Assembly (NCBI RefSeq): GCF_030769565.1
Contig: NZ_JAVCAP010000002.1
Span: forward strand, 62,001 to 126,000
DNA: 64,000 nucleotides
From: Methylophilus aquaticus
GTDB lineage: Bacteria; Pseudomonadota; Gammaproteobacteria; Burkholderiales; Methylophilaceae
Direction of reading: 5' to 3'
This document shows positions 49,408 through 63,965 of this stretch, in pieces. The notes beneath the pieces are model-generated. The model ran no database searches. It was not told the DNA's origin and saw only the letters and a list, made by a program, of their open reading frames with translations. How positions within the stretch are numbered: position 1 is the first letter of the stretch; the number at the start of each line of letters is the position of its first letter. Both the position numbers and the translations under genes were made by a program.

Positions 49408-51170
49408 TATTGGTCCCCTTTCAGACGGCTTTGTGTCATTGGGCTCAATACCATTTCGGATAGGCCCTTGCCGTTTTCAACCATGGGGAATACGTTTTCG
49501 CTTTGATCGGTGACAAAATCCATAAATACAAATTTATCTTTTTTATCGAATGCTTCTTTCAGCGCGCCTTCAACGTCGGCCGGATTGGTAATGCGCATAC
49601 CCACGTGCCCATAGGATTCTGCCAGTTTGACAAAGTCAGGCAGGCTGTCCATGTAGGATTCTGAATAACGGTTCTCGTAGAAGAACTCCTGCCACTGGCG
49701 TACCATGCCCAGGTAGCGGTTATTGAGCAGAATAACCTTGATCGGCAGGCCATACTGCGCACAGGTTGAAAGCTCCTGGATGTTCATCTGGATGCTGCCT
49801 TCACCGGTCACGCAGGCCACTTGCGCATGTTTGTCAGCAAACTGGCAACCCATAGCATAAGGCAGGCCAACCCCCATAGTGCCGAGGCCGCCCGAGTTGA
49901 TCCAGCGTCGAGGCTTGTCGAATTTGTAGTATTGCGCCGCCCACATCTGGTGCTGACCCACATCCGAGGTGATATAGGCATCGCCCTTGGTTACTTCCCA
50001 CAGCTTCTGGATCACGTATTGTGGCTTGATCACGCTATCGGAGGTGGCGTAATCCATGGATTCTACGCCACGCCATTCGTTGATCTGTTTCCACCAGTCG
50101 GCGATTTCAGTGTGCTGGTTTTCTTCCTGCGCCAGAATTTCATTCATGTCCGTCAGCACGGAATGCACGTCACCGACAATCGGCACGTCGACCTTCACGC
50201 GTTTGGAAATGCTGGAAGGATCCACATCGATATGAATGATCGTGCGTTTCTGGCTGGTGAAGTGCTTTGGGTTACCAATCACACGGTCATCAAAGCGTGC
50301 ACCTACCGCAAGCAACACATCACAGTGCTGCATGGCCATATTGGCTTCGTAAGTGCCGTGCATACCTAGCATGCCGACAAACTGTTTGTCGGTTGCAGGG
50401 TAGCCGCCCAACCCCATCAGTGTGTTGGTGACCGGAAAGTTGAGTGCTTTGGCCAATTTCACCAGTTCTGCTGCACCGTTGCCCAATACCAAGCCCCCGC
50501 CGGTATAAATCATCGGACGTTTTGCGCTCAGCAATAGTTTGACCGCTTTTTTGATCTGGCCGTTATGCCCTTTCAAAATCGGATTGTATGAGCGCATTTC
50601 TACCGTTTTTGGGTAAATGAAATCCGCGACATGTGCGGTGATGTCTTTAGGAATATCTACAACCACTGGGCCTGGTCGGCCGGTTTTGGCAATAAAAAAT
50701 GCTTTTTTGATGGTCGGTGCAATGTCTTTAACATGCTTCACCAGGAAGTTATGTTTTACACATGGGCGGGTGACGCCCACCATATCCACTTCCTGAAAAG
50801 CATCCATGCCAATCGCCGGAACAGGCACCTGGCCGCTGATCACGACCAGCGGCACTGAATCCATATAAGCGGTGGCAATGCCGGTAATGGCGTTCGTCGC
50901 CCCTGGGCCGCTGGTCACTAATGCCACGCCTACGTCGCCTGTGGCGCGTGAGTAAGCATCGGCTGCATGCACTGCGGCCTGTTCATGACGCACCAGAATG
51001 TGCTTGAAGCCATTCTGTTTGTACAGAGCATCATAAATATGCAAGACCGCGCCGCCGGGATAGCCAAAAACAAATTTGACTTTTTCCTCGTTCAGACAAT
51101 TAACAACAATGTCCGCTCCCGTCATCGATTTGGCGGGAGTGTCGGTCGCGGGGTGGGTTGAAGAATCCAT
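49407..51170 (-). CDS. ilvB: acetolactate synthase large subunit
   Basis: This 587-residue thiamine-diphosphate enzyme condenses two pyruvates or pyruvate and 2-oxobutyrate. It shows FVFGYPGGAVLHIYDALYK, the catalytic Glu in VRHEQAAVHAADAYSRA, and the TPP motif TGEGSIQMNIQEL near residue 460. The first 15 residues are polar and lie outside the conserved domain. The operon order ilvB-ilvH-ilvC is standard. No leader peptide for attenuation was recognised upstream. It may also be called IlvI. Confidence 0.96.
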   Translation of the reverse strand: MDSSTHPATDTPAKSMTGADIVVNCLNEEKVKFVFGYPGGAVLHIYDALYKQNGFKHILVRHEQAAVHAADAYSRATGDVGVALVTSGPGATNAITGIATAYMDSVPLVVISGQVPVPAIGMDAFQEVDMVGVTRPCVKHNFLVKHVKDIAPTIKKAFFIAKTGRPGPVVVDIPKDITAHVADFIYPKTVEMRSYNPILKGHNGQIKKAVKLLLSAKRPMIYTGGGLVLGNGAAELVKLAKALNFPVTNTLMGLGGYPATDKQFVGMLGMHGTYEANMAMQHCDVLLAVGARFDDRVIGNPKHFTSQKRTIIHIDVDPSSISKRVKVDVPIVGDVHSVLTDMNEILAQEENQHTEIADWWKQINEWRGVESMDYATSDSVIKPQYVIQKLWEVTKGDAYITSDVGQHQMWAAQYYKFDKPRRWINSGGLGTMGVGLPYAMGCQFADKHAQVACVTGEGSIQMNIQELSTCAQYGLPIKVILLNNRYLGMVRQWQEFFYENRYSESYMDSLPDFVKLAESYGHVGMRITNPADVEGALKEAFDKKDKFVFMDFVTDQSENVFPMVENGKGLSEMVLSPMTQSRLKGDQ

Positions 51171-51292
51171 AAAACCTTGATTTATTGGCTAATTAATGTT
51201 GAACCCTAAACATTAACTTGGTTTGGGTATTTGGTCAAGATTCAAGCGAAAGTTAACTTTATGCAGTCTGATTAAAAACGCGCACAAATGTT

Positions 51293-51322
51293 TTGACAAT
51301 ACAAATGAGAAGTATTATCATT
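51293..51322 (+). promoter_or_regulatory. Fur-box promoter of the iron/S4 block
   Basis: TTGACA (51293-51298) and TATCAT (51316-51321) are spaced by exactly 17 bp. A Fur-box-like palindrome, AATGAGAAGTATTATCATT (51304-51322), covers the spacer and the -10 element, so bound Fur would block RNA polymerase. It lies 25 bp upstream of the first gene of the block. Confidence 0.8.
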
Positions 51323-51346
51323 TACAAAAAATGCGAGGAATGACTG

Positions 51347-51655
51347 ATGCAATGCAATCACGAAGCTGAACAGACAGGCGTGTTTGATCCTGATTTACCT
51401 AACGCGAGTGCAGTGCTGGTGTCGCTGAGTTGTGTTGCCACCCGCTATGCCTGTAATCCTTCTGAGGATCTTGCTTTGCTTGGGTGGAGTCTGGCGCAAA
51501 CGCTGACTGCACCAGAGTATGCCGAGAGCGGGTTGGTGGTGTCGGCGGCAAGACAGTTGATGCAGGAATGGCGCAACTTGCTGGATGCGCATCGCGAGTT
51601 TGCCATGCAGCAGGTCGTTACAGAGTTTATTCCGCAATCAGCCACTATGCAGTGA
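51347..51655 (+). CDS. small protein of unknown function, Fur-promoter proximal
   Basis: This 102-residue protein is not recognised. It is soluble, mostly helical by appearance, with three Cys residues in the first 37 positions (Cys3, Cys29, Cys36) and a central WSLAQTLTAPEYAESGLVVS stretch. GAGGA lies eight bases before the ATG, and the gene directly follows a Fur-box promoter, so it is likely made under iron shortage. It precedes the S4 paralogue by 91 bp. A link with iron or with ribosome remodelling is inference from position only. Confidence 0.75.
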   Translation: MQCNHEAEQTGVFDPDLPNASAVLVSLSCVATRYACNPSEDLALLGWSLAQTLTAPEYAESGLVVSAARQLMQEWRNLLDAHREFAMQQVVTEFIPQSATMQ

Positions 51656-51746
51656 GTGATTGGGAGGTGAGCGGCAGGTTTGCGAAATGCCGGGCAGTCA
51701 TGGCTACCCGGGGATGATTAATATTGAATGAGTTAAGGGTATGTAA

Positions 51747-52364
51747 ATGGCAAGAACAACGGGACCAAGATTAAAGATTATGCGTGCATTGGGCGTGGAA
51801 TTGCCTGGGTTGTCGCGCAAATCCATAGAAAATCGTCCTAATCCACCTGGTCAGCATGGCCAGCAGGCTTCGCGCCGTCGTCGCTCCGATTTTGCGGTGA
51901 AGTTGGTTGAAAAGCAGAAAATCCGCTTTAACTATGGCGTCAGCGAAAAGCAAATGCGCCGCCTGATGCTGGAAGCGCGTAAAGGCACTGAGCCTACTGG
52001 TGAAAAGTTGATGTCTCTGCTGGAGCGCAGGCTGGATAATGTGGTGTTCAGAGCTGGGTTTGCACCCACGGGTGTGGCTGCGCGCCAATTGGTCACCCAT
52101 GGCCATGTGCTGCTGAATGGCAGGGCTGCCAACATTCCATCCATCCGGTTACGTGTAGGCGATGAGGTGGTGGTGAAGGAAAATAGCCGCAAGATTCCTA
52201 TGGTGGTGGAGTCGCTGAAGGCCCCTGCACTCGATCGGCCAGAGTGGCTGTCAGTGGATACAACGGCTGCATCGGTGAAGCTTGGGCATTTACCATCCAT
52301 CGCGGATGTGCCTTTTCCGATAGATGTGCAGCAGGTGGTCGAATATTACGCAAATCGCGTGTAA
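51747..52364 (+). CDS. cysteine-free paralogue of ribosomal protein S4
   Basis: This 205-residue protein is a full-length S4: an N-terminal domain (MARTTGPRLKIMRALGVELP, PPGQHG), then the S4 RNA-binding domain at about residues 95-155 (LLERRLDNVVFRAGF, ARQLVTHGHVLLNGR). It contains no Cys, whereas housekeeping S4 of related bacteria carries a Cys-based N-terminal site. It is not in a ribosomal protein operon but in an iron-uptake locus behind a Fur-box promoter. It may replace standard S4 under iron limitation, by analogy with Zur-controlled C-minus ribosomal proteins. That role is inference. Confidence 0.9.
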   Translation: MARTTGPRLKIMRALGVELPGLSRKSIENRPNPPGQHGQQASRRRRSDFAVKLVEKQKIRFNYGVSEKQMRRLMLEARKGTEPTGEKLMSLLERRLDNVVFRAGFAPTGVAARQLVTHGHVLLNGRAANIPSIRLRVGDEVVVKENSRKIPMVVESLKAPALDRPEWLSVDTTAASVKLGHLPSIADVPFPIDVQQVVEYYANRV

Positions 52365-52384
52365 CAACGCTTTTGTGTTGCAGA

Positions 52385-52523
52385 ATTTGAGCAATGTCCC
52401 TAATCCCCCGACACATGTCCATTGCTCAAATACGGTGTTGCTTGCGACGCCGCAATCACCCCTGGTAAGGGTGTTCCTTGAAATCTGTGCCGCATTGTTC
52501 GCGCATGTAAGTCGGCTTTTTTT
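52385..52523 (+). promoter_or_regulatory. structured leader upstream of hemP, possible attenuator
   Basis: The 178-bp gap between the S4 gene and hemP holds a perfect 12-bp inverted repeat, ATTTGAGCAATG (52385-52396) with CATTGCTCAAAT (52420-52431), a smaller CACCC/GGGTG stem near 52456-52475, and a weak GCCG...CGGC stem followed by seven T residues at 52517-52523, just 19 bp before hemP. This could be a terminator or attenuator that sets hemP expression apart from the S4 gene. Confidence 0.45.
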
Positions 52524-52542
52524 ATTAATGACAGGGGTAAGG

Positions 52543-52782
52543 ATGACGGAACATGTAAGGCCACTGGCGCGGACTGTCGAGCTCGCGAATGCCGGATATG
52601 TGAGTGACAGGCGACATGGCTTGCCGGAAATTAATGCGGACCAGCTATTTGGCGCATCCAATACCGTGGCAATCATGCATGCGGGTGAGGTGTATCTGCT
52701 CACGCGTACCAAGTTAAACAAGCTGTTACTGACCAAGCAGGGCGGGTTGTCGGCCACCATGCGGTCAGCATACAAGGAGTAA
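52543..52782 (+). CDS. hemP: hemin uptake protein HemP
   Basis: This 79-residue protein has the HemP domain at its C-terminus: INADQLFGASNTVAIMHAGE and then VYLLTRTKLNKLLLTK, close to the family pattern LFG...V.I.H.GE.Y.LR.T..GKLILTK. HemP proteins are small, iron-regulated and found with haem or TonB-linked uptake genes; their mechanism is unclear. The ATG at 52543 is preferred since GGGGTAAGG directly precedes it; a long upstream frame from 52324 overlaps the S4 gene and is not HemP-like. Confidence 0.85.
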   Translation: MTEHVRPLARTVELANAGYVSDRRHGLPEINADQLFGASNTVAIMHAGEVYLLTRTKLNKLLLTKQGGLSATMRSAYKE

Positions 52783-52786
52783 TGGC

Positions 52787-53029
52787 ATGACGGATGAAGC
52801 ACATCAGCGTATATTACTGGCAAAAAATACAGCAGGTACGGTTGAATTTTGTGATAGTTGTGAAGTAGTTGAGTTGAATGTAGGCGCTACCAGCTTGCGT
52901 TTTTATATGGAAGATCTGGCTGTGCTGTCTACGCTGTTACGGGATGCGGATGCCCGGTTGCAGTATTATCAACTGGCGCAGGCCGGCATCGAGCAGATGC
53001 GTCCTACGTCAGCAAAGGAGTTGAATTAA
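52787..53029 (+). CDS. small CxxC protein of unknown function between hemP and tonB
   Basis: This 80-residue soluble protein is not recognised. Its only marked feature is CDSCEVVELNVGATSLRF at about residues 22-39, a CxxC pair followed by what looks like short beta strands, then a helix. It is 4 bp after hemP and overlaps tonB by one base, so it is made with them. The CxxC could bind a metal or be redox-active, which would suit an iron-uptake operon. Confidence 0.75.
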   Translation: MTDEAHQRILLAKNTAGTVEFCDSCEVVELNVGATSLRFYMEDLAVLSTLLRDADARLQYYQLAQAGIEQMRPTSAKELN

Positions 53030-53892
53030 TGACACAGCGCAAAACGTGGGGGCAGTTGTCGTTGTCGCCCTCTCAAGATGTGCCTTCTGAGCTGCCTGAA
53101 CTTAGCTTGCGTCGTCGCCAGCTGGGCGAGTTGGCGGGCGTATTTCGCTGGTCTGTACTGGCGGTAGAGGATATCTGGAGCGCGCACCGTCGCCAGCAAT
53201 CATGGCCTTGTTTTGGCATGTTGGCGGTGGTGGCTGCGCACATCGCATTGATCTGGTGGGCGTTATATGAGATTGAGCCACCACTCTCCAAAGTGGAGCC
53301 GCCGCCGATGACGGTCTCATTGATCACCTTGCCCGCCGAGAAGACTGCACCCGAGCCGGAAATTGTACCTATTATCAAACAAAAGCCGGTTGAAAAACCT
53401 GTGATCAAGCCAAAAGAAACGCCTGTACAAAAAGTGGTTGAGCGGCCTGCTCCGGTAGTCGAGCGTATTGTGGAGCCTGCTGCCGATACGCCGCGTTTTG
53501 AGGCCAGTGCACAAGCAGCACCGCCACCACTGGCTGCGCCTGAGGCGGCGGCACCAGCCAAAGTGGCGGCTACACCGGTGGCTCCTCCCAAGCATGAGGT
53601 TGAGGAGAAAGAGGAGCCGCCAAAGTTTGGGGTGGCTTATCTCAACAATCCGGCACCGGAATATCCGCGGCTGGCGAAGCGCGCAGGTGAGCAAGGGCGT
53701 GTGTTGTTAAAAGTACTGGTAAACGCGGATGGCCTGCCAGGTTCGGTAGAAGTTTCAAAAGGCAGTGGTTTTGAGCGGCTGGATAATGCAGCTTTGGAAG
53801 CGGTCAAGCAATGGCGTTTTGAACCTGCCCGCAAGGGTGGCAAGGCCATTAGTGCTTATGTCATTGTGCCGCTGTCTTTTACATTGAATTAA
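53029..53892 (+). CDS. tonB: energy transducer TonB
   Basis: This 287-residue TonB has a transmembrane anchor at about residues 62-82, a Pro/Glu/Lys-rich spacer (about 100-195), and the C-terminal TonB domain with PAPEYPRLAKRAGEQGRVLL and VSKGSGFERLDNAALEAVKQ, then WRFEPA. The roughly 60-residue cytoplasmic N-terminus is longer than in most TonB proteins. It carries proton-motive energy to outer-membrane receptors, here likely the two receptors downstream. Confidence 0.92.
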   Translation: MTQRKTWGQLSLSPSQDVPSELPELSLRRRQLGELAGVFRWSVLAVEDIWSAHRRQQSWPCFGMLAVVAAHIALIWWALYEIEPPLSKVEPPPMTVSLITLPAEKTAPEPEIVPIIKQKPVEKPVIKPKETPVQKVVERPAPVVERIVEPAADTPRFEASAQAAPPPLAAPEAAAPAKVAATPVAPPKHEVEEKEEPPKFGVAYLNNPAPEYPRLAKRAGEQGRVLLKVLVNADGLPGSVEVSKGSGFERLDNAALEAVKQWRFEPARKGGKAISAYVIVPLSFTLN

Positions 53893-53920: not shown

Positions 53921-54664
53921 ATGGAGTCTATGAACGGGCTGGCATTTATCAGTCAGGGGGGCGCGGTTTCAATTATTGTTGCGCTGATTTTAGCCACCAT
54001 GTCAGTGTCAAGCTGGTATTTTATTGTGGTCAAGACGTGGCAGGCATTCAAGCATCGCAGTGCGGTGAGTGGCTATATTCGCCAGTTCTGGCAAAAATCA
54101 ACCTTGCAGGAGGCCTTGCAAGATGTGCAGTTGCATTCTCCCGCATTTCGTTTGGCATTGACGGCCACCGAGTCTGCACAGCATCACCAGCAATATGCCA
54201 GCCAGTCACTGGCAGCCGTATGTAGTCAGGATGAGTTTATTGTGCGCCAGCTTCGCCGCACTTTGTCGCAAGAGCAGGCCACCATGGAAAGTGGACTATC
54301 TGTGTTGGCCTCGGTCGGTAGTGTGGCGCCTTTTGTTGGTTTGTTTGGGACGGTCTGGGGCATTTACCACGCGTTGACTGCGATTGGTCAATCCGGTGTG
54401 GCGACCATCGATAAAGTGGCTGGCCCGGTAGGTGAGGCGCTGATCATGACCGCGATTGGTTTGGCAGTGGCGATTCCGGCGGTATTGGCTTATAACGCCT
54501 TTATCAAGGCTAACCGCGGCGTGATGGCAGAGCTTGAGGGCTTTGCGCAAGACCTGCACACGTTGCTGACGACGGGGGCGCCACTGATGATAAAGCCAGG
54601 TAGCAAGCCTGCCAATGTGACGGCGATTCATACGAAAGTGGCCAATAAAGGCGGTAATGTATGA
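53921..54664 (+). CDS. exbB: biopolymer transport protein ExbB (MotA/TolQ family)
   Basis: This 247-residue inner-membrane protein has three transmembrane segments (about residues 15-38, 125-150, 165-190) and the MotA/TolQ/ExbB core with VLASVGSVAPFVGLFGTVWG and VAGPVGEALIMTAIGLAVAI. With ExbD it forms the proton channel that energises TonB. It lies 28 bp after tonB and overlaps exbD by four bases. Confidence 0.94.
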   Translation: MESMNGLAFISQGGAVSIIVALILATMSVSSWYFIVVKTWQAFKHRSAVSGYIRQFWQKSTLQEALQDVQLHSPAFRLALTATESAQHHQQYASQSLAAVCSQDEFIVRQLRRTLSQEQATMESGLSVLASVGSVAPFVGLFGTVWGIYHALTAIGQSGVATIDKVAGPVGEALIMTAIGLAVAIPAVLAYNAFIKANRGVMAELEGFAQDLHTLLTTGAPLMIKPGSKPANVTAIHTKVANKGGNV

Positions 54665-55080
54665 TTGGCAATAACCCTTTCAGCAGCGGAGAGCATACGC
54701 AGCCGATGAGTGAGATCAACACCACACCGTTGGTGGACGTCATGCTGGTGCTGCTGGTGATTTTTATTATCACGGCCCCTTTGCTCACACATGCGGTCAA
54801 AATTGATTTGCCGCAGGCCACTTCACAACCTCTGGAAGAAAAGCCGGAAGTGATTGATCTGGCCGTGGATACTGACGGCAAGCTGTATTGGAATGACGCC
54901 GAGATCGATAAAGTCGATCTGGCCGCACGTTTGAGAGAAGCCAGTGCCAAACAGCAGCAGCCTGAGTTGCAGATTCGTGCGGATAAAAACACGCGTTATC
55001 AGGTATTGGCCGAAGTGCTGGCGCAGGCACAAACGGTAGGCATGAAGAAGGTTGGCTTTGTCAGCCAGCCGCAGCCGTAA
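54661..55080 (+). CDS. exbD: biopolymer transport protein ExbD
   Basis: This 139-residue protein has one transmembrane helix (VMLVLLVIFIITAPLLTHA) preceded by MSEINTTPLVDVML, in which the Asp is the proton-carrying residue of ExbD/TolR, and a periplasmic domain ending with VLAEVLAQAQTVGMKKVGFV. It is translationally coupled to exbB (ATGA). Confidence 0.94.
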   Translation: MIGNNPFSSGEHTQPMSEINTTPLVDVMLVLLVIFIITAPLLTHAVKIDLPQATSQPLEEKPEVIDLAVDTDGKLYWNDAEIDKVDLAARLREASAKQQQPELQIRADKNTRYQVLAEVLAQAQTVGMKKVGFVSQPQP

Positions 55081-55123: not shown

Positions 55124-56260
55124 ATGACGCCACAGCGACTTCGAACCTGGGTATGGATTCACAAATGGTCCAGTCTGGTGTGCACAGCATTTATGCTGTT
55201 GTTATGCCTGACTGGCCTGCCTTTGATATTCAGCCATGAAATTCACCACTTGCTGGGTGGCGAAATTGAAACGCCCAATATTGCACATCAGGGCCCCAAT
55301 GCCTCGATGGATGACTTGCTCGGCGCTGCGCAGAGTTTGTATCCCAAACTGGTGCCGCAGTATATGTTTCGCGATGAGGATGAGCCGCTGCAGTGGACTG
55401 TCCGTTTAGGCGCCACGCCTACAGACCAGACACAGTTGCAAAATGTAGTGCTGGACGCACGTACGGCACAGGTATTGGGGCAGCCACCCGCCAACGAAGG
55501 CTTTTTATACGTGATGTTCAAGTTGCATGTCGACTTGTTTGCGGGCCTGCCGGGCATGCTATTTCTGGGGCTGATGGGCTTGCTGCTGGTACTGGCCATT
55601 ATCTCCGGCATCGTGCTTTATGCGCCTTTCATGCGCAAGCTAGCCTTTGGTGAAATCCGCCATACACGCGGTGAAAAACTCAAACGATTGGATATTCATA
55701 ATTTTATCGGGATCGTAACCTTGAGCTGGGCGCTGGTGGTGGGGTTAACCGGGGTGATTAATACCTGGTCAGAACTGCTGGTGAAATACTGGCAATTTGA
55801 CCAGATGACGCAAATGGTCGCGCCTTACAAGCACTTGCCGCCGCCCACGCAATTCGCTTCTCTACAGCAATCATTGCAAGTGGCAGAGCGCACAGAGCCC
55901 GCCATGCAATTAGGCTTTATTGCATTCCCAGGTACGCCTTACACCAGTGAACACCATTACGGTATTTTCATGCGGGGTGATACACCACTCACCAAGCGGC
56001 TGTTCAAGCCTGTACTGGTGGATGCACAAACTGCGCAGCTGACTGATAGTCGTGACTTGCCTTGGTATCTGGTGGCTTTGCTGGTTTCGCAGCCTTTGCA
56101 TTTTGGTGATTATGGTGGCATGGCATTGAAATGGATTTGGGCAGTATTGGATGTGTTGACGATTGTAGTCTTGTGGACTGGCTTGAAGTTATGGTGGAAA
56201 AAACGCCACCAATATGTCCCTGATGTCAGCACACGTATTGCATTGAGCGAGGCTTATTAA
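55124..56260 (+). CDS. PepSY-associated membrane protein (PiuB-like), first copy
   Basis: This 378-residue protein has about four transmembrane helices and two PepSY-type periplasmic parts. It starts with the family pattern TWVWIHKWSSLVCTAFMLLL and LTGLPLIF, keeps His residues in helices (HKW, HHLLGG, LHVDLFAG) and ends LDVLTIVVLWTGLKLWWKKR. Such proteins sit with TonB-dependent receptors and may reduce ferric-siderophores or move electrons across the membrane. It follows exbD by 43 bp. Confidence 0.85.
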   Translation: MTPQRLRTWVWIHKWSSLVCTAFMLLLCLTGLPLIFSHEIHHLLGGEIETPNIAHQGPNASMDDLLGAAQSLYPKLVPQYMFRDEDEPLQWTVRLGATPTDQTQLQNVVLDARTAQVLGQPPANEGFLYVMFKLHVDLFAGLPGMLFLGLMGLLLVLAIISGIVLYAPFMRKLAFGEIRHTRGEKLKRLDIHNFIGIVTLSWALVVGLTGVINTWSELLVKYWQFDQMTQMVAPYKHLPPPTQFASLQQSLQVAERTEPAMQLGFIAFPGTPYTSEHHYGIFMRGDTPLTKRLFKPVLVDAQTAQLTDSRDLPWYLVALLVSQPLHFGDYGGMALKWIWAVLDVLTIVVLWTGLKLWWKKRHQYVPDVSTRIALSEAY

Positions 56261-56609: not shown

Positions 56610-57083
56610 ATGAACAAATACACACACTTGCATTGGCATACTCTTTCTATTCTGGCATCCGCCTTTTTTGGACTCCATCAATACGCACTGGCCGCAGACT
56701 CCTGCGAAGTGACGGTAGAAGCGACCGATTCCATGACCTTCACGACCAAGGAAATTGCAGTCCCCAAAAGTTGTAAGGCATTTTCAATTCACCTCAAACA
56801 TACCGGCACGATGAGCAAAAATATCATGGGCCATAACTTGGTGGTCAGCAAGCAGACGGATCAGCAGCCAGTTCTGCAAGACGGCATGAAGGCAGGTGCC
56901 AGCCAATCGTTTGTTAAGCCGCAGGATGTCCGTGTGCTTGCCTTTACCGCGCTCATTGGTGGTGGAGAGCAGGCCAGCACGACATTTAGTCCGGCAAAAC
57001 TTGAGGTCACAGCGAACTATGTCTTTTTCTGTTCTTTTCCTGGGCATGCTTCAGTAATGAAGGGTGCGATCAAATTAATTTAA
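56610..57083 (+). CDS. azurin (type I copper protein)
   Basis: This 157-residue exported cupredoxin has a signal peptide ending in ALAA, then SCEVTVEATDSMTFTTKEIA. The copper ligands of azurin are all visible: His75 in MGHNLVVSK, Cys141 in YVFFCSFPGHASVMKG, His146 and Met150, with the same spacings as His46, Cys112, His117 and Met121 of mature azurin. It would carry single electrons in the periplasm. Its place in a TonB/PepSY iron locus is notable. ACGGAG precedes the start. Confidence 0.93.
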   Translation: MNKYTHLHWHTLSILASAFFGLHQYALAADSCEVTVEATDSMTFTTKEIAVPKSCKAFSIHLKHTGTMSKNIMGHNLVVSKQTDQQPVLQDGMKAGASQSFVKPQDVRVLAFTALIGGGEQASTTFSPAKLEVTANYVFFCSFPGHASVMKGAIKLI

Positions 57084-57211
57084 TCCGTTCCACAAGTTGA
57101 GAGTGCGGCGACGGCGTGTTCCACGTTCTCAGCAATGCATCTTTCAACAGAGCGTAAGGCTCATGCTTAATTAGCGCCTTATCCAAAAGTCACCTTGGAG
57201 CATTAAATTAA

Positions 57212-58180
57212 ATGAATCTGTCAGATTTTATGGTTCGTCCCCAGCACGCTGCCTGGTTGACATGGGCTGTGAGCATGGCGCCGATGACTGTGTTGGCCTC
57301 TGCTGCCAATCAGGAGGATGCGGCAACCCGGGACAGGCAAGCCATTTTGTCCATGCAAGGCGAGTACGAAGTAGAGTTTAAATTTATTGAAACGGTAACC
57401 CTCAAGCCAAACTACCACCGCAAAGGTGAAAAGTTTTCCGGAGCGTTTGAGAAAGTCTATGTCGTTGAGGATACACCGACAAAAATTGTGCTTCAGCATT
57501 TGCTTATTTCTGATAATGGCGATGTGATCAAGCACTGGCGGCAGGATTGGTTATATGAGGCTACCACACGACTAGAGTTTACTGAAGACCAGGTCTGGCG
57601 AGTGAGAAAGATCGCCGACGACAAAATAACAGGCTACTGGACGCAGTGTGTCTATGAAGTGACTGATGCGCCACGCTACTGCGGAACGGGCAAATGGAAC
57701 CACCATTACGGTCATCCTACCTGGACATCGGACCGTACCTGGCGCCCGTTACCCCGTCGCGAATATACCACCCGCAACGACTACAATGCGCTCAATGTCG
57801 AAAATCGTCACACCATCACTCCATCTGGCTGGACACATGAACAAGACAACACCAAAGTCGCGCGCAAAGGCGAAGCCACAGAAGCATTGCTTGTACGTGA
57901 GATTGGATTTAATGATTATCAAAAGGTTAAGGTCATCAATTTCAAAGCAGCAGATGAGTACTGGCAAAAAACATCCAGTTACTGGGCGGGCATCCGTCAA
58001 CGCTGGGAATCGATTTTGCAGCAAAATAAGTGCTTGAAACTCAAGTTTGATCTAAATGATACGCAGCTGATGAATGTCGTGTTTGAGCAAGCGGAACAGC
58101 GCATTCAAGGTCGTCAGGCAGAGCAAGCCGCATTGGACTTGGCATTCTCGACTTGGGTGGCGGCCTGTCCAGCGCAGTGA
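57212..58180 (+). CDS. DUF6607-like exported protein
   Basis: This 322-residue protein has a hydrophobic N-terminus (TWAVSMAPMTVLASA) and a body with many Trp and Tyr residues: VYVVEDTPTKIVLQHLLISD, IKHWRQDWLYEATTRL, RTWRPLPRREYTTRNDY and ITPSGWTHEQDNTK. These patterns recall DUF6607, a family of unknown function often found beside TonB-dependent receptors and PepSY proteins. The family call is from memory and should be checked. It is the last gene before the second Fur promoter. Confidence 0.75.
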   Translation: MNLSDFMVRPQHAAWLTWAVSMAPMTVLASAANQEDAATRDRQAILSMQGEYEVEFKFIETVTLKPNYHRKGEKFSGAFEKVYVVEDTPTKIVLQHLLISDNGDVIKHWRQDWLYEATTRLEFTEDQVWRVRKIADDKITGYWTQCVYEVTDAPRYCGTGKWNHHYGHPTWTSDRTWRPLPRREYTTRNDYNALNVENRHTITPSGWTHEQDNTKVARKGEATEALLVREIGFNDYQKVKVINFKAADEYWQKTSSYWAGIRQRWESILQQNKCLKLKFDLNDTQLMNVVFEQAEQRIQGRQAEQAALDLAFSTWVAACPAQ

Positions 58181-58228: not shown

Positions 58229-58258
58229 TTGCATTAGTTAATGATAATTATTATCATT
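58229..58258 (+). promoter_or_regulatory. Fur-box promoter of the receptor block
   Basis: TTGCAT (58229-58234) and TATCAT (58252-58257) are 17 bp apart, overlapped by AATGATAATTATTATCATT (58240-58258), a perfect 19-bp palindrome that matches the Fur consensus closely. It lies about 63 bp before the first receptor gene. The layout matches the promoter at 51293. Confidence 0.9.
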
Positions 58259-58321
58259 TAAGACTTTCGCAAGCCAACGAGTCTCACTCCAGTAGCCAGC
58301 TGTTTGTTTACTGGAGTAGAT

Positions 58322-60421
58322 ATGTCCATTTTTCGAAAGAAAACGCTTTCCCTTGCCTTAATGCTGGCGATGCCTGCAACCCCACTATTGGCGGAAGATG
58401 GCCGTGTAGAAGAGCAAGCAACATTGTCAGAAGTGTCTGTGAAGGCACAAAAAGACCGCAAAAAAGATCGGTTTATCACGCAGGACCGAACCACCAGTGT
58501 CGGTAAAAGTCCGGTCAGCGTGCAAGATTCCCCGCAGTCTATCACCGTCGTTGATGTTGAGCAGGCGCGTGAAATGGGCGCACTGAACATTCAGGATGCT
58601 TTAACTTATGCCGCAGGTGCATATTCCGGCCGTTATGGTTTTGATACCAGAGGTGACTGGGTTTCAGTGCGTGGTTTTACACCCTCTATTTTTCTAGATG
58701 GTATTCGTACTTTGTATGGCTCTTACAACAACACGCGCATGGATATCTATACGCTTGAGAGCATAGAGGTTCTTAAGGGGCCATCATCCTCTTTGTTTGG
58801 TCAATCTGATTTGGGCGGGATCGTGAACGCAGTGACCAAGCGCCCGAAAAAAGAAGCTGCTCGCGAAGTTAACATGCAATATGGCATGTACGACCGAAAA
58901 CAGTTGGCTGTTGACTTCACTGGGCCGGTGACTGAGGATGGCGAATGGCTATATCGTTTTGTTGCATTAAAGCGTGACAGTGGTACACAAGTTGACCATG
59001 TCAATGATGATGCTGTCTTGTTTATGCCATCGATTACTTGGCAACCCAGCGACAAAACCAGCATTACGCTGCAATACCTCCATCATGAGGTCGATACTGT
59101 TGTTTCTTCTCAGTTTTTGCCTTCCAAGGGGACAATACAATCCGCTCCGCTCGGCAGAATATCAAGCAGCACTTTCGTTGGTGAGCCTGGGTGGGATCGT
59201 TATGACATGAAAAGAGATGAGCTTTCGTTGTTTGTAGATCAGGCGTTGACCAGCCAAATTAAACTGATTGCCAATATCAGAAAAACCAACTCAAGTAGTG
59301 AAACTCGCGAGCATTGGGCAAGCGTCGGTGCAATTCCTGATAATGCGGGAAACATCACTAGAACAATACATACTGCAGACCGTAGCACGCATGTGTTTGC
59401 GACAGATACGCGCCTGCAGGGTGATTTTAAGCTGGGTGAAACGAAACATTTGGTTTCGCTTGGCATGGATTATCAAGATGCGCTATGGACAGAAAGCAAT
59501 TACGCGTCTACCACCTCTGCTTTTGGTATCAACTTATATAACCCAGTCTATGGCAATGTTGATTACTCAAAGCTGGTTGGCGCTGAGCGCGATAACAACA
59601 AAATCGTGCAGACTGGTTTTTACCTGTCAGACCACATTGAATGGGGACCTTGGGTAGCTTCAGGGGCCATTCGACGCGATCATGCAACTAATACCTTGTT
59701 GCGATTCAATCAAGCGCTGGCTGATGTGGATTCGAGAAATTCGGCAACCACGGGACGCTTGGGTCTGATGTACCGTTTTGACAACGGTATTTCACCATAC
59801 ATTAATTACTCCGAAGCGTTTGTTCCAAATCTGGGAACGGATGGTGCAGGAGGCGTACTCAAGGCTACTGAAGGTGAGCAACGAGAGGCAGGCATCAAAT
59901 ATTTGTCGCATAGTGGCGATACTTCAGTGAATTTTGCCTGGTTTGACATCGAGCAAATCAATCGCGTTGTGCAGGGGAGCACGCCTGGTGGAGTCGCGCA
60001 AACGGGGGCTATTACGCAAGGGTGGGAAGTAGATGCGCGCCAACGTTTTGGCAAGCTTGATTTGCTCGCAAACTATACGCATATGAGCGCTATTAACGAC
60101 GTCACAAAATTCCGTTTAAGTTCAATAGCTGAAAAAATTGGTTCAGCATGGGCACAATATCGATTTAACGATCATTGGCGCGCAGGCGTTGGTACGCGAT
60201 ATATTGGGGATGTGGTTGGTGGAACAGCGAATCTGCTCGAAGTGCCCTCGGTGACGCTATTTGATGCCATGGTTGGATTTACTTATGGCCCTTGGGACAT
60301 TCGTGCAACTGTGAGAAATATCGCAGACAAAGAGTATGTTTCTTGGTGTCGAGGATTGAATCAAGATTGCGGTTATGGTGAACGAAAAAACGCAGTGCTT
60401 TCTGCGAATTACAAGTTCTAA
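58322..60421 (+). CDS. TonB-dependent siderophore receptor (FhuA/FpvA type)
   Basis: This 699-residue outer-membrane receptor has a signal peptide (LSLALMLAMPATPLLA), a plug domain with DSPQSITVVDVEQAREMGAL, the pattern GDWVSVRGFTPSIFLDGIRT and EVLKGPSSSLFGQSDLGGIV, and a 22-strand-type barrel ending in aromatic SANYKF. These are features of ferrichrome/pyoverdine-type siderophore receptors. The ATG at 58322 has GGAG upstream. It is under a strong Fur box. The ligand is not predictable. Confidence 0.92.
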   Translation: MSIFRKKTLSLALMLAMPATPLLAEDGRVEEQATLSEVSVKAQKDRKKDRFITQDRTTSVGKSPVSVQDSPQSITVVDVEQAREMGALNIQDALTYAAGAYSGRYGFDTRGDWVSVRGFTPSIFLDGIRTLYGSYNNTRMDIYTLESIEVLKGPSSSLFGQSDLGGIVNAVTKRPKKEAAREVNMQYGMYDRKQLAVDFTGPVTEDGEWLYRFVALKRDSGTQVDHVNDDAVLFMPSITWQPSDKTSITLQYLHHEVDTVVSSQFLPSKGTIQSAPLGRISSSTFVGEPGWDRYDMKRDELSLFVDQALTSQIKLIANIRKTNSSSETREHWASVGAIPDNAGNITRTIHTADRSTHVFATDTRLQGDFKLGETKHLVSLGMDYQDALWTESNYASTTSAFGINLYNPVYGNVDYSKLVGAERDNNKIVQTGFYLSDHIEWGPWVASGAIRRDHATNTLLRFNQALADVDSRNSATTGRLGLMYRFDNGISPYINYSEAFVPNLGTDGAGGVLKATEGEQREAGIKYLSHSGDTSVNFAWFDIEQINRVVQGSTPGGVAQTGAITQGWEVDARQRFGKLDLLANYTHMSAINDVTKFRLSSIAEKIGSAWAQYRFNDHWRAGVGTRYIGDVVGGTANLLEVPSVTLFDAMVGFTYGPWDIRATVRNIADKEYVSWCRGLNQDCGYGERKNAVLSANYKF

Positions 60422-60446
60422 TAGAACATTTAATCCAGGACTCACC

Positions 60447-62645
60447 ATGAAATGCACCCCTCAAAAACTGTCATTTGCCGTGCTTTATGCTATTTGTCTA
60501 AACCAAGCGGTTGCAGCAGAAAGCAAAACAAATGATGCTCAGGTTGATACCTTGGATGAAGTAAAGGTCAACGCCTCCGCGGATGCCAATGCCAAAGGAC
60601 TGATGAAACCCTATGCCGGTGGTCAGGTTGCCAAAGGCGGCCGCGTGGGGGTGATGGGAAACCAGGATGCAATGGATACGCCGTTTTCCATCAACGCCTA
60701 TACCAACGCGCTCATACAGAATCAGCAGGCGCGCAGTGTGGGCGATGTGTTGCTGAATGATCCTTCTGTACGTGTTGCCCGCGGTTTCGGTAACTTTCAG
60801 GAATCATACTTTATACGTGGTTATATTTTGAACTCGGACAGTGTGGCCTACAACGGCTTGTATGGATTGTTGCCACGTCAATATATCTCTGCTGAATTGT
60901 TTGAGCGGGTAGAGGTGCTGCGTGGCGCTTCTGCTTTCTTGAATGGCGCTAGCCCTAATGGTGACGGAATTGGAGGCTCTATTTCTTTATTGCCCAAACG
61001 TGCCCCTAATGACCCTTTAAATCTGGTGACAACAGGGTGGAGCTCTGGCAACCAGCAGTTTGTTTCAGCTGATATTGCACGACGTTTTGGACCTGATGAC
61101 AGTGCCGGTTTGCGGCTGAATGTTTCCAAGCGTAAAGGGGGAACTGCTGTTGACCGAGAGCATGTTGAGCTTGATTTGATCTCGCTGGGGTTTGACTGGC
61201 GAGGCGAAAATATACGTGTATCCGCGGATGCTGGCTATCAGGACAATAAGCTGAATGAAACCAGAACCAACGTCACTTTAAGTGCCAGCAGTCCAGCAAT
61301 TACTGGCGTGCCAAGCGCACCTGCCAGTGATAAGAACTGGGCTCAACCATGGTCATATTCGAATGAGCGCGATGTGTTTGGTACTTTGCGCGCAGAGTGG
61401 GATGTAAGCGCCCAGTTAACAGCCTATGCCGCAGCAGGCGCTCGCCATACCAAAGAGGCGAATTCCCTGGCAAATCTCACGTTAAGCAATTCAAGTACGG
61501 GTGCCGGGACGATGTCGAGATTCGATAATATTCGTGATGAATCAGTCATTACTGGAGAAGCTGGCTTGAAGGGGACGTTTAATACGGCCTCCATTGAGCA
61601 CGACTGGGTGCTTTCTACCAGTGCGTATTCAGCAGTGCGCAAGATTGACTTTGCATTTCAGCATAGTTTAAACACTAATCTTTATACACCAGTTTATTAT
61701 GCGCAACCCGCTTTCACTGGTGCTAATGCGGCTCCATTTGATCTCTACGTCAACTATGAGGCAAATCTGCAAAGCGTGGCGCTGGGTGATACCTTGTCAT
61801 TGTTTGATAAGCGTTTATTGCTGACATTAGGCGCACGTCAGCAGAATTTGAAGTATATAAATAAAAACGCGACAGGTGCCACGACCAGTCAATACGACGA
61901 AAGCAAGTTAAGCCCAGCATTAGGTATGGTAGTTAAGCCATGGCAAGGGATCTCGCTTTATGCAAACTATATCGAGGCGTTGTCACAGGGTGATACCGCA
62001 CCTGCAACTGCAAATGGGAGTCCGGTTGTGAATGCCGGTCAGGTGCTGGCACCATTTGTTTCCAAGCAAAAAGAGGTGGGTGCCAAATTTGATTTTGGTA
62101 AAGTGCGACTGACAACTGCTTATTTCACCACTGAGAAGCCCAGAGGAGTGACCAACACATCCAATATTTTTAAACAAGAAGGCAGCGAAGATCATCAAGG
62201 CGTAGAGCTGATGACTTATGGAGAGGTTATGGCTGGCCTGCGATTGCTGGGCGGTGTGACATGGCTGGATACCAAACAAAAGAACACCAATAATGCTGCT
62301 ACTGAAGGCAAGCGCACGATAGGCGTCCCTGATAAACAAGCTAATTTGGGCGTTGAGTGGGATGTGCGAGGGGCATCAGGATTGACCTTGGATGCACGCG
62401 TGATTGTAACAGACAGTGTTTATGCCAATGCTGCCAATACACTTGAAGTACCCGGTTGGACAAGGCTGGATATTGGCGCACGCTATGTCACCGATATCAA
62501 AGGTAAATTAGTCACTGTACGAGGCCGTGTAGATAATGTGACTGACCGTGACTACTGGGCCTCCAGTGGCGGGTTCCCTAATAATGGCTATCTGGTATTG
62601 GGTGCGCCACGCATGGTCACCGTCAGTGCGCAACTCGATTTTTAA
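60447..62645 (+). CDS. TonB-dependent siderophore receptor, second copy
   Basis: This 732-residue receptor starts MKCTPQKLSFAVLYAICLNQ with a signal peptide, has a plug with MDTPFSINAYTNALIQNQQA and RVEVLRGASAFLNGASPNGD, and a barrel ending VTVSAQLDF. It is of the siderophore receptor type but quite different from the first receptor, so it may take another xenosiderophore. AGGA precedes the ATG at 60447, and only 25 bp separate the two receptor genes, so both use the Fur promoter at 58229. Confidence 0.92.
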   Translation: MKCTPQKLSFAVLYAICLNQAVAAESKTNDAQVDTLDEVKVNASADANAKGLMKPYAGGQVAKGGRVGVMGNQDAMDTPFSINAYTNALIQNQQARSVGDVLLNDPSVRVARGFGNFQESYFIRGYILNSDSVAYNGLYGLLPRQYISAELFERVEVLRGASAFLNGASPNGDGIGGSISLLPKRAPNDPLNLVTTGWSSGNQQFVSADIARRFGPDDSAGLRLNVSKRKGGTAVDREHVELDLISLGFDWRGENIRVSADAGYQDNKLNETRTNVTLSASSPAITGVPSAPASDKNWAQPWSYSNERDVFGTLRAEWDVSAQLTAYAAAGARHTKEANSLANLTLSNSSTGAGTMSRFDNIRDESVITGEAGLKGTFNTASIEHDWVLSTSAYSAVRKIDFAFQHSLNTNLYTPVYYAQPAFTGANAAPFDLYVNYEANLQSVALGDTLSLFDKRLLLTLGARQQNLKYINKNATGATTSQYDESKLSPALGMVVKPWQGISLYANYIEALSQGDTAPATANGSPVVNAGQVLAPFVSKQKEVGAKFDFGKVRLTTAYFTTEKPRGVTNTSNIFKQEGSEDHQGVELMTYGEVMAGLRLLGGVTWLDTKQKNTNNAATEGKRTIGVPDKQANLGVEWDVRGASGLTLDARVIVTDSVYANAANTLEVPGWTRLDIGARYVTDIKGKLVTVRGRVDNVTDRDYWASSGGFPNNGYLVLGAPRMVTVSAQLDF

Positions 62646-62660
62646 TGTTTGAATCTATTT

Positions 62661-63965
62661 ATGCGTCCATTCTTTCTTAAAGTGCACCGCTGGTTAGGCC
62701 TGGCCAGCGCGCTGTTTTTGCTGCTGACCGGGCTGACCGGGGCGCTCATTTCGTGGGACCACGAGCTCGATGAATGGCTCAATCCGGCGTGGATGCATAG
62801 CAGCGCAACGGGCGCACACTTGCCTTCACTTGCACTGGCACAACAGGTGGCCCATCGCTATCCGCAAGCACAGGTGACCTCGATTCCGCTTGCCGTGGAA
62901 GCCGGGCATACCCTGTCAATTGGCGTGAAGTCGCAGGTTGATCCTAGCAGCGGCCAGCTGTATGACCTCGGGTTTAACCAGGTGTTTATGGACCCGGTCA
63001 CCGGGCAGGAACTGGGTAAGCGGGAGTGGGGTGCAGTGTGGCCGTTGGACCGTACCAACTTTGTCTCGTTCTTGTATAAACTGCATTACAGCCTGCATTT
63101 GCCCGAAATGTGGGGGATTGACCGCTGGGGTATCTGGCTGATGGGAATCGTCGCGATCATTTGGCTGATAGACAGCTTTGTCGGGGTTTACCTCACCTTG
63201 CCAAAGTCGGCAAAAGTGGCCAGACGCAAGCCGGGTGTATCCGCAACGATGTCCCATACGTCATTTGGCAAACGCTGGTTGCCTGCGTGGAAGATCCGCT
63301 GGAACAGTAGCGAGCATAAGCGCTACTTTGATCTGCATCGTGCGTTTGGTTTGTGGACATGGCTGCTGCTGATTATTCTGGCTTTTTCTGCGTTCGCACT
63401 CAATTTACGGCGTGAAGTGTTTATGCCGTTGATGCAATCAGCTTTTACATTGACGCCCACCCCCTTTGATTTACGCAAGCCACTGCCAAAATTGGAACAA
63501 GTGCCGCCTAACGTTGGTTTTGAACAGGTGCTGGCGCTGGCAATCCGTGACGCAAGGGCAAATGGCTGGCACGAGCCTGCCGGGCGCATTTCCTATAGTC
63601 TGCCTTATCAGCTGTTTAGCGTAGATTTTTACTCCCCTGACGCTGATCACGGCGTGGCCGGCGCAGGGCACAAGCGCTTGTACTACGATGCGATCGACGC
63701 CCGGCCATTGGGGCAGCGCATTCCATGGCAAGGGACGGCAGGAGACCTCATTTTGCAAGCGCAGTTCCCCTTACACTCAGGACGCATATTAGGCTTGCCG
63801 GGCAGAATTCTGATTTCTGTCATGGGTGTCGTGGTGGCCATGCTTTCTGTCACTGGCGTGTATTTATGGTGGAAAAAACGCAAGGCGAGAAAAGTATCCG
63901 TCATGATTGCGCAAGGCAGCACACAGCTGCATGCATACCGGCCCGATCGGGTGGATGTTTTTTGA
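62661..63965 (+). CDS. PepSY-associated membrane protein (PiuB-like), second copy
   Basis: This 434-residue protein (ATG at 62661; a TTG at 62649 is in frame) has four or so transmembrane helices with KVHRWLGLASALFLLLTGLT at the N-terminus, HELDEWLNP, LYKLHYSLHLPEMWG, a central FDLHRAFGLWTWLLLII and an end IRILGLPG-like segment followed by GVYLWWKKRKAR. It is related to, but larger than, the copy at 55124. It follows the receptor gene closely and may reduce or release iron taken up by it. Confidence 0.88.
   Translation: MRPFFLKVHRWLGLASALFLLLTGLTGALISWDHELDEWLNPAWMHSSATGAHLPSLALAQQVAHRYPQAQVTSIPLAVEAGHTLSIGVKSQVDPSSGQLYDLGFNQVFMDPVTGQELGKREWGAVWPLDRTNFVSFLYKLHYSLHLPEMWGIDRWGIWLMGIVAIIWLIDSFVGVYLTLPKSAKVARRKPGVSATMSHTSFGKRWLPAWKIRWNSSEHKRYFDLHRAFGLWTWLLLIILAFSAFALNLRREVFMPLMQSAFTLTPTPFDLRKPLPKLEQVPPNVGFEQVLALAIRDARANGWHEPAGRISYSLPYQLFSVDFYSPDADHGVAGAGHKRLYYDAIDARPLGQRIPWQGTAGDLILQAQFPLHSGRILGLPGRILISVMGVVVAMLSVTGVYLWWKKRKARKVSVMIAQGSTQLHAYRPDRVDVF

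Follow-up and report, generated by a model that had tools for sequence, protein, structure and literature searches.

A Cys-free ribosomal protein S4 paralogue in a putatively Fur-controlled iron locus of Methylophilus aquaticus: a candidate iron-sparing exchange

Replacement of a metal-binding ribosomal protein by a Cys-free paralogue under a metal-sensing repressor is known from the Zur-controlled S14, L31, L33, L36 and others. The locus described here resembles these systems and differs from them in its Fur-like site, in its neighbours, which serve iron uptake, and in the metal that would be saved, iron. Fur-linked iron-sparing isozymes, e.g., FumC or Mn-SOD, replace iron enzymes when Fur is inactive. 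These switches concern enzymes, whereas an exchange of S4 would concern a structural part of the ribosome.

Pairs of a four-Cys (C+) and a Cys-lacking (C-) S4 were surveyed by Chen, Roberts & Luthey-Schulten (2009; PMC3087516). As far as the accessible parts of that survey go, the same C-(IV) S4 as found here stood beside a four-Cys C+ S4, and Nitrosomonas europaea and Sorangium were already listed with both forms. The C+ form was treated as zinc-binding, and earlier work had assigned zinc to the four-Cys site; Zur sites were sought and, in 26 genomes, none was found near the S4 paralogues, and the control of the pairs was left open. The word iron is absent from the main text in the version available, and Fur boxes, linkage to iron genes and the reading based on Fe4S4 are added here. 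The Steitz group was the first to assign an Fe4S4 cluster to the ‘Zn-finger’ of uS4 from Thermus, and long-wavelength diffraction has confirmed it (Rozov et al., 2019; PMC6555806); an S4 swap is not described in the sections of that paper at hand. A Fur-controlled S4 was not found reported in the open-licence literature.

The window, i.e., the whole stretch of 64,000 nucleotides from the methanol-consuming bacterium Methylophilus aquaticus that was analysed, displays the following features in and around the S4 locus:

51293..51321, + strand: sigma-70-like promoter TTGACA-N17-TATCAT, 11/12 matches, as a consensus match only
51306..51320, + strand: putative Fur box TGAGAAGTATTATCA, overlapping the -10 element, 12/14, i.e., two mismatches to TGATAATNATTATCA, which we take to be the Fur consensus
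51347..51655, + strand: orf102, small helical protein; many relatives have a homologue 5' of S4
51747..52364, + strand: Cys-free ribosomal protein S4 paralogue of C-(IV) type, 205 aa
52385..52431, no strand assigned: 12-bp perfect inverted repeat with a 23-nt loop, 3' of S4
52543..52782, + strand: hemP-like gene (PF10636, 44 bits)
52787..53029, + strand: orf80, 80 aa, weakly DUF6686-like (below cut-off)
53029..53892, + strand: TonB (PF03544)
53921..54664, + strand: ExbB-type proton channel (PF01618)
54661..55080, + strand: ExbD (PF02472)
55124..56260, + strand: PepSY transmembrane protein (PF03929)
58304-60421 and 60375-62645: two TonB-dependent receptor genes
62649-63965: PepSY-like ORF (by eye), following the receptor genes

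The observations from which the sequence-only reading had started held up throughout: a full-length Cys-free S4 (ORF, TIGR01017 and Pfam), its position between a 102-residue protein and hemP (ORF and Pfam calls), and a promoter overlapped by a Fur-like palindrome. The S4 product has zero Cys and matches TIGR01017 over residues 3-202 with 220.8 bits (cut-off 177.2), and the Pfam families Ribosomal_S4 and S4 both score over their cut-offs. Its AlphaFold model has a mean pLDDT of 84.1, with low confidence for the first ~40 residues, and the core fits ribosomal S4 chains (1.3 A over 158 columns to 1qd7_C). The segment bearing the second Cys pair is missing. C-(IV) S4 proteins were defined by the lack of Cys pairs, a missing insert, Leu/Phe 15, Gly/Pro 21 and a retained PGxHG (PMC3087516, accessible portion). 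The paralogue displays these signatures as L15, G21 and PGQHG, and our alignment with the housekeeping S4 shows a gap of six residues where the same source counts seven. The gene is clearly under purifying selection: within Methylophilus, dN is ~0.09 and dS >1 (saturated), compared with 0.02-0.04 and 0.5-1.2, respectively, for the housekeeping rpsD. It seems to evolve faster than the latter, the species pairs being unmatched between the two genes.

The housekeeping rpsD lies on the same contig outside the window, in the order rpsM-rpsK-rpsD-rpoA-rplQ (G000:C12:12192-12821), so that the paralogue is not the sole S4 of the genome; had it been the sole one, the idea of a swap would have failed. 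The two proteins are 42% identical. In the housekeeping S4, Cys 9, 12, 26 and 31 occupy the same positions as the four Cys in the aligned Thermus thermophilus S4 chain, and a four-Cys partner as in Zur-type C+/C- ribosomal pairs is thus present. In Thermus the cluster itself was seen (PMC6555806, as far as available), while here the likeness concerns the Cys positions, by analogy with which an Fe4S4 cluster may be expected in the Methylophilus protein. Around the housekeeping rpsD, a 13-kb stretch contained one loose Fur match (12/14), more than 6 kb away from the gene.

The promoter match alone is weak evidence, because the same scan gave three promoter-like sites in the region and 2.1 in shuffles. 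The palindrome TGAGAAGTATTATCA was equalled in 0/100 shuffles of the upstream 550 bp, and Fur-like sites with up to three mismatches numbered ten window-wide against 2.9 expected. A looser pattern, TGMKAATNATTMKCA, which was devised after the result with the strict consensus was known and was used for the survey of boxes across loci, occurred five times in the window at up to two mismatches against 2.7 expected, and 16/100 shuffles had as many. A fur gene is present in the same genome, so that both marks of a Fur regulon, a box at the promoter and the regulator gene, were found, the box being a consensus match and putative. A perfect Fur box (TGATAATTATTATCA, 58242-58256) precedes the two TonB-dependent receptor genes, by which the stretch can be regarded as an iron island.

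It appears probable from the sequence evidence (roughly 0.7) that the S4 paralogue is a Fur-controlled, iron-sparing protein exchanged into ribosomes under iron shortage. Under iron-replete conditions, Fe-Fur would occupy the box that overlaps the -10 element and keep orf102-S4 off, perhaps together with hemP-tonB-exbBD, and ribosomes would be built with the housekeeping S4, its four N-terminal Cys holding Fe4S4. With iron short, Fur would be released, the Cys-free S4 would be produced together with the iron-uptake machinery, and new 30S subunits would incorporate it as a working ribosomal S4 needing no metal. About four iron atoms per ribosome would be spared by the swap, since the four-Cys site holds Fe4S4 in Thermus S4. 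A Fur-linked swap of S4 had been proposed in the sequence-only reading; the proposal gains from the second rpsD and from the comparative support for the box, and the reason based on Fe4S4, which it lacked, is supplied here.

Within the genus, the paralogue was found in 17/22 genomes (72-100% identical), and the five genomes without it are 80-94% complete. A contig scan confirmed it in 282 relatives, of which 79 distinct loci were kept, spanning Methylophilaceae, Nitrosomonas europaea, Thiobacillus, Thauera, Sorangium and others. The gene order of the Methylophilaceae loci, orf102-S4-(hemP)-orf80-tonB-exbB-exbD, is conserved for the most part, which answers the suggested survey of the S4-hemP-tonB linkage, and hemP or orf102 was not found in some of these loci. 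Counted as Methylophilaceae-type were 41 loci (the window, L071-L109 and L138), comprising 30 with a second, housekeeping-type S4, six with a sole S4 and five unchecked in this respect (L081, L082, L099, L102, L108). Among the housekeeping partners of the 30 loci, four Cys were read in 23, six were assigned by score and identity only, and that of G020 is a fragment. G020 was considered as a genome lacking a full C+ S4 and rejected as such, the contig end explaining the fragment. A Fur box scoring 12/14 or more (TGMKAATNATTMKCA) lies within 700 bp upstream in 30/30 loci with a housekeeping S4 and likewise in 5/5 unchecked ones; five of these 35 boxes reach only 12/14, with 3-8/100 shuffles as good. 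Two of the two-S4 loci, L098 and L105, carry Fur boxes on both sides of S4.

These boxes bear on a classical zinc-sparing swap, in which the housekeeping S4 would bind zinc, the C- copy would serve under zinc shortage and the iron neighbours would be secondary. Zur-like sites, scored against what we take to be the E. coli-type consensus, were no better than shuffles in 11/11 loci (best 7-9/14, reached by 27-60/60 shuffles); in the window the best match was 9/14, with 52/60 shuffles as good. Zur control was thus rejected for lack of a Zur site at the C- gene in the window, the ten other loci being similar. The four-Cys site was, it is true, modelled with zinc, and zinc-driven C- exchange is established for other ribosomal proteins (PMC3087516, in the parts at hand), but the same survey saw no Zur site by the S4 paralogues either, and the conserved sites are Fur boxes instead. 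We regard the zinc reading as unlikely.

Slightly less likely still is a role in oxidant defence or decoding, in which a Cys-free S4 would dispense with a cluster prone to oxidation or would adjust accuracy under iron stress, iron being saved as a secondary effect. According to the excerpts available, Fe-S clusters are sensitive to oxidants (PMC8141631), and mutations in E. coli S4 alter both accuracy and oxidant resistance (PMC8141631; PMC12186496). The visible control element, however, resembles a Fur site, and the adjacent genes serve iron uptake, not peroxide defence. This alternative competes little with an iron-sparing exchange in any case, because the swap itself would be the same.

Eight genomes, 92-100% complete, possess no C+ S4 (G022, G037, G031, G050, G062, G071, G079, G087); six of them correspond by coordinates to named loci, namely five Methylobacillus and Methylovorus sp. 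MM2. In all eight, rpsD is absent from the gap between rpsK and rpoA, which measures 62-90 bp, the corresponding distance in the window genome being 730 bp. Loss of the C+ S4 in Methylobacillus flagellatus was already reported (PMC3087516), and the two C- S4 copies of G079, 143,032 bp apart, fit the M. flagellatus repeat mentioned in the accessible text of that paper. A tree of the proteins, which had been suggested as a check, separated C+ from C- S4 with 100/100 support, subject to a warning about long branches; the sole-S4 genes formed one group (90/64) among the two-S4 Methylophilaceae, and the sole-S4 state therefore probably reflects one evolutionary event. In all eight sole-S4 genomes, the 700 bp 5' of S4 lacked a box scoring 12/14 or more. 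In the six sole-S4 loci, the best match in this range was 9-11/14 (19-100/100 shuffles as good), and a 13/14 Fur box stands 3' of S4 in 6/6. Such a 13/14 box lies just downstream of S4, ahead of iron genes, in seven of the eight genomes; downstream of S4 in G022, none of at least 12/14 was found. At the sole-S4 locus L258, a 13/14 match stands farther out, at -966. Because L098 and L105 are boxed on both sides, it is simpler to assume that the upstream box was lost.

The sequence-only reading had also raised the possibility of an RNA-binding regulator of the locus; the paralogue would then no longer be ribosomal and would bind the mRNA of its own locus. S4 proteins are known to bind mRNA and to influence antitermination, and the inverted repeat at 52385-52431, a form of which is present in 8/9 Methylophilus loci examined (L075 being without it), could be a terminator, an attenuator or an mRNA target. 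Against such a role, an Rfam search of 50800-53600 gave no element at E<=1, the S4 core fold is retained in the AlphaFold model, and the eight sole-S4 genomes depend on orthologues of the paralogue for all their S4, which makes a regulator very unlikely.

The genomes of 50 of the 79 loci were checked for a second S4; 32 had two S4 over the cut-off and 18 had one. In the former, including Nitrosomonas, Thauera, three Sorangium and Nannocystis, the partner was a four-Cys S4 in 32/32. The 18 one-S4 genomes belong mostly to other phyla or to the Methylobacillus group; two betaproteobacterial drafts (L114 and L119, genomes G439 and G444) had one S4 over the cut-off, in the C- form. In a sample of the order, 12/300 genomes gave a C- match at E<=1e-50, ten with a four-Cys partner and two (G031, G050) with the C- form only. 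The housekeeping S4 was read in 74 genomes of the order, 43 having four Cys and 31 not, and one of the 74 (G124) contained a C- paralogue. In a sample of the class, 3/276 genomes had a C- match. Taken alone, this co-occurrence is modest evidence.

Outside Methylophilaceae, the paralogue was found in several different iron or haem contexts. All nine Thauera loci have a Fur box of 13-14/14, located at -95 and -114 from S4 in L120 and L125, respectively. The Nitrosomonas locus shows an orf102 homologue and a TonB receptor upstream; the box of N. europaea scores 10/14 with the strict consensus (28/100 shuffles) and 12/14 with the looser pattern (4/100). In L112, tonB-exbB-exbD stand ahead of orf-S4, with a 13/14 box at -2345; L308 has the order PepSY-orf-S4, and 5.5 kb upstream of it a tonB gene is marked by a 13/14 box; and in L119 a hemP-like gene lies directly 5' of S4, with a 12/14 box at -834. 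Boxes of 13/14 were further found in L306 (-1186) and twice in L310 (-510 and -551), there between the small ORF of S4 and a divergent gene. Boxes of 12/14 occur in L311 (-117, 8/200 shuffles as good) and in the two-S4 Myxococcales locus L136 (-122, 0/100), and one of 11/14 in Nannocystis L140 (-42, 4/100). An ABC ATPase precedes S4 in L115; L114-L116 have 12/14 boxes only, 5.7-6.0 kb away, and such distant boxes are weak evidence because chance alone would give ~2.7 loose matches in the 64 kb of the window. A good near box was not found at L113, L117, L307 and L309, nor at the Sorangium paralogues L129-L131 (best 10/14). L309 represents a CobN-orf-S4-ExbB-DUF2149 type of operon, in which, following a TonB receptor, the C- S4 and its small ORF are flanked on one side by a CobN-type chelatase and on the other by an ExbB-like/DUF2149 pair (L309:5935-11815). 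The least likely alternative, a C- S4 carried into an iron operon by chance as a functionless passenger, would suit the reported mobility of C-(IV) genes between genomes (PMC3087516, available part) and the separate branching of C- proteins, but is opposed by the purifying selection, the box directly 5' of S4 in L120 and L125, the several distinct iron contexts and the lineage that has neither a C+ S4 nor a near upstream box. In a gammaproteobacterial genus (L320, L321), a C-(IV)-like S4 shares ~50% identity with the paralogue; in both loci, no Fur box scoring 11/14 or more lies within 900 bp.

For betaproteobacteria in general, we consider it rather likely that uS4 is an Fe-S protein, that Fur swaps in a metal-free uS4 when iron is lacking, and that Methylobacillus and its kin have made this swap permanent. 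Such an exchange would extend metal-driven remodelling of the ribosome, established for zinc and Zur, to iron and Fur, would lend a physiological meaning to the Fe4S4 cluster in uS4, and would suggest, at least in betaproteobacteria, how C+/C- S4 pairs are controlled. In many bacteria with a four-Cys S4, uS4 would then represent a large iron store under the control of the cell. At one S4 per ribosome and four iron atoms per cluster, tens of thousands of ribosomes would hold an estimated ~10^5 iron atoms per cell.

The companion gene orf102 encodes 102 aa without a Pfam match up to E 10, and its assignment to a known family was rejected for want of a credible match; it might conceivably be a FagA-like protein. 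Its AlphaFold model consists of three helices (mean pLDDT 78.9). The orf102 profile also matches seven other genomes of the 276 in the class sample, and, by eye, orf102-like genes seem to occur without S4, close to ORFs resembling iron-uptake genes, in other gammaproteobacteria (L313, L315, L316, L319). Some of those outside S4 loci are situated near TonB-receptor- or PepSY-like ORFs, as judged by eye without a family search, so that orf102 may be a general iron-operon protein. Inside the iron island of the window, an azurin (TIGR02695) and a DUF6607 protein are encoded at 56610-58180.
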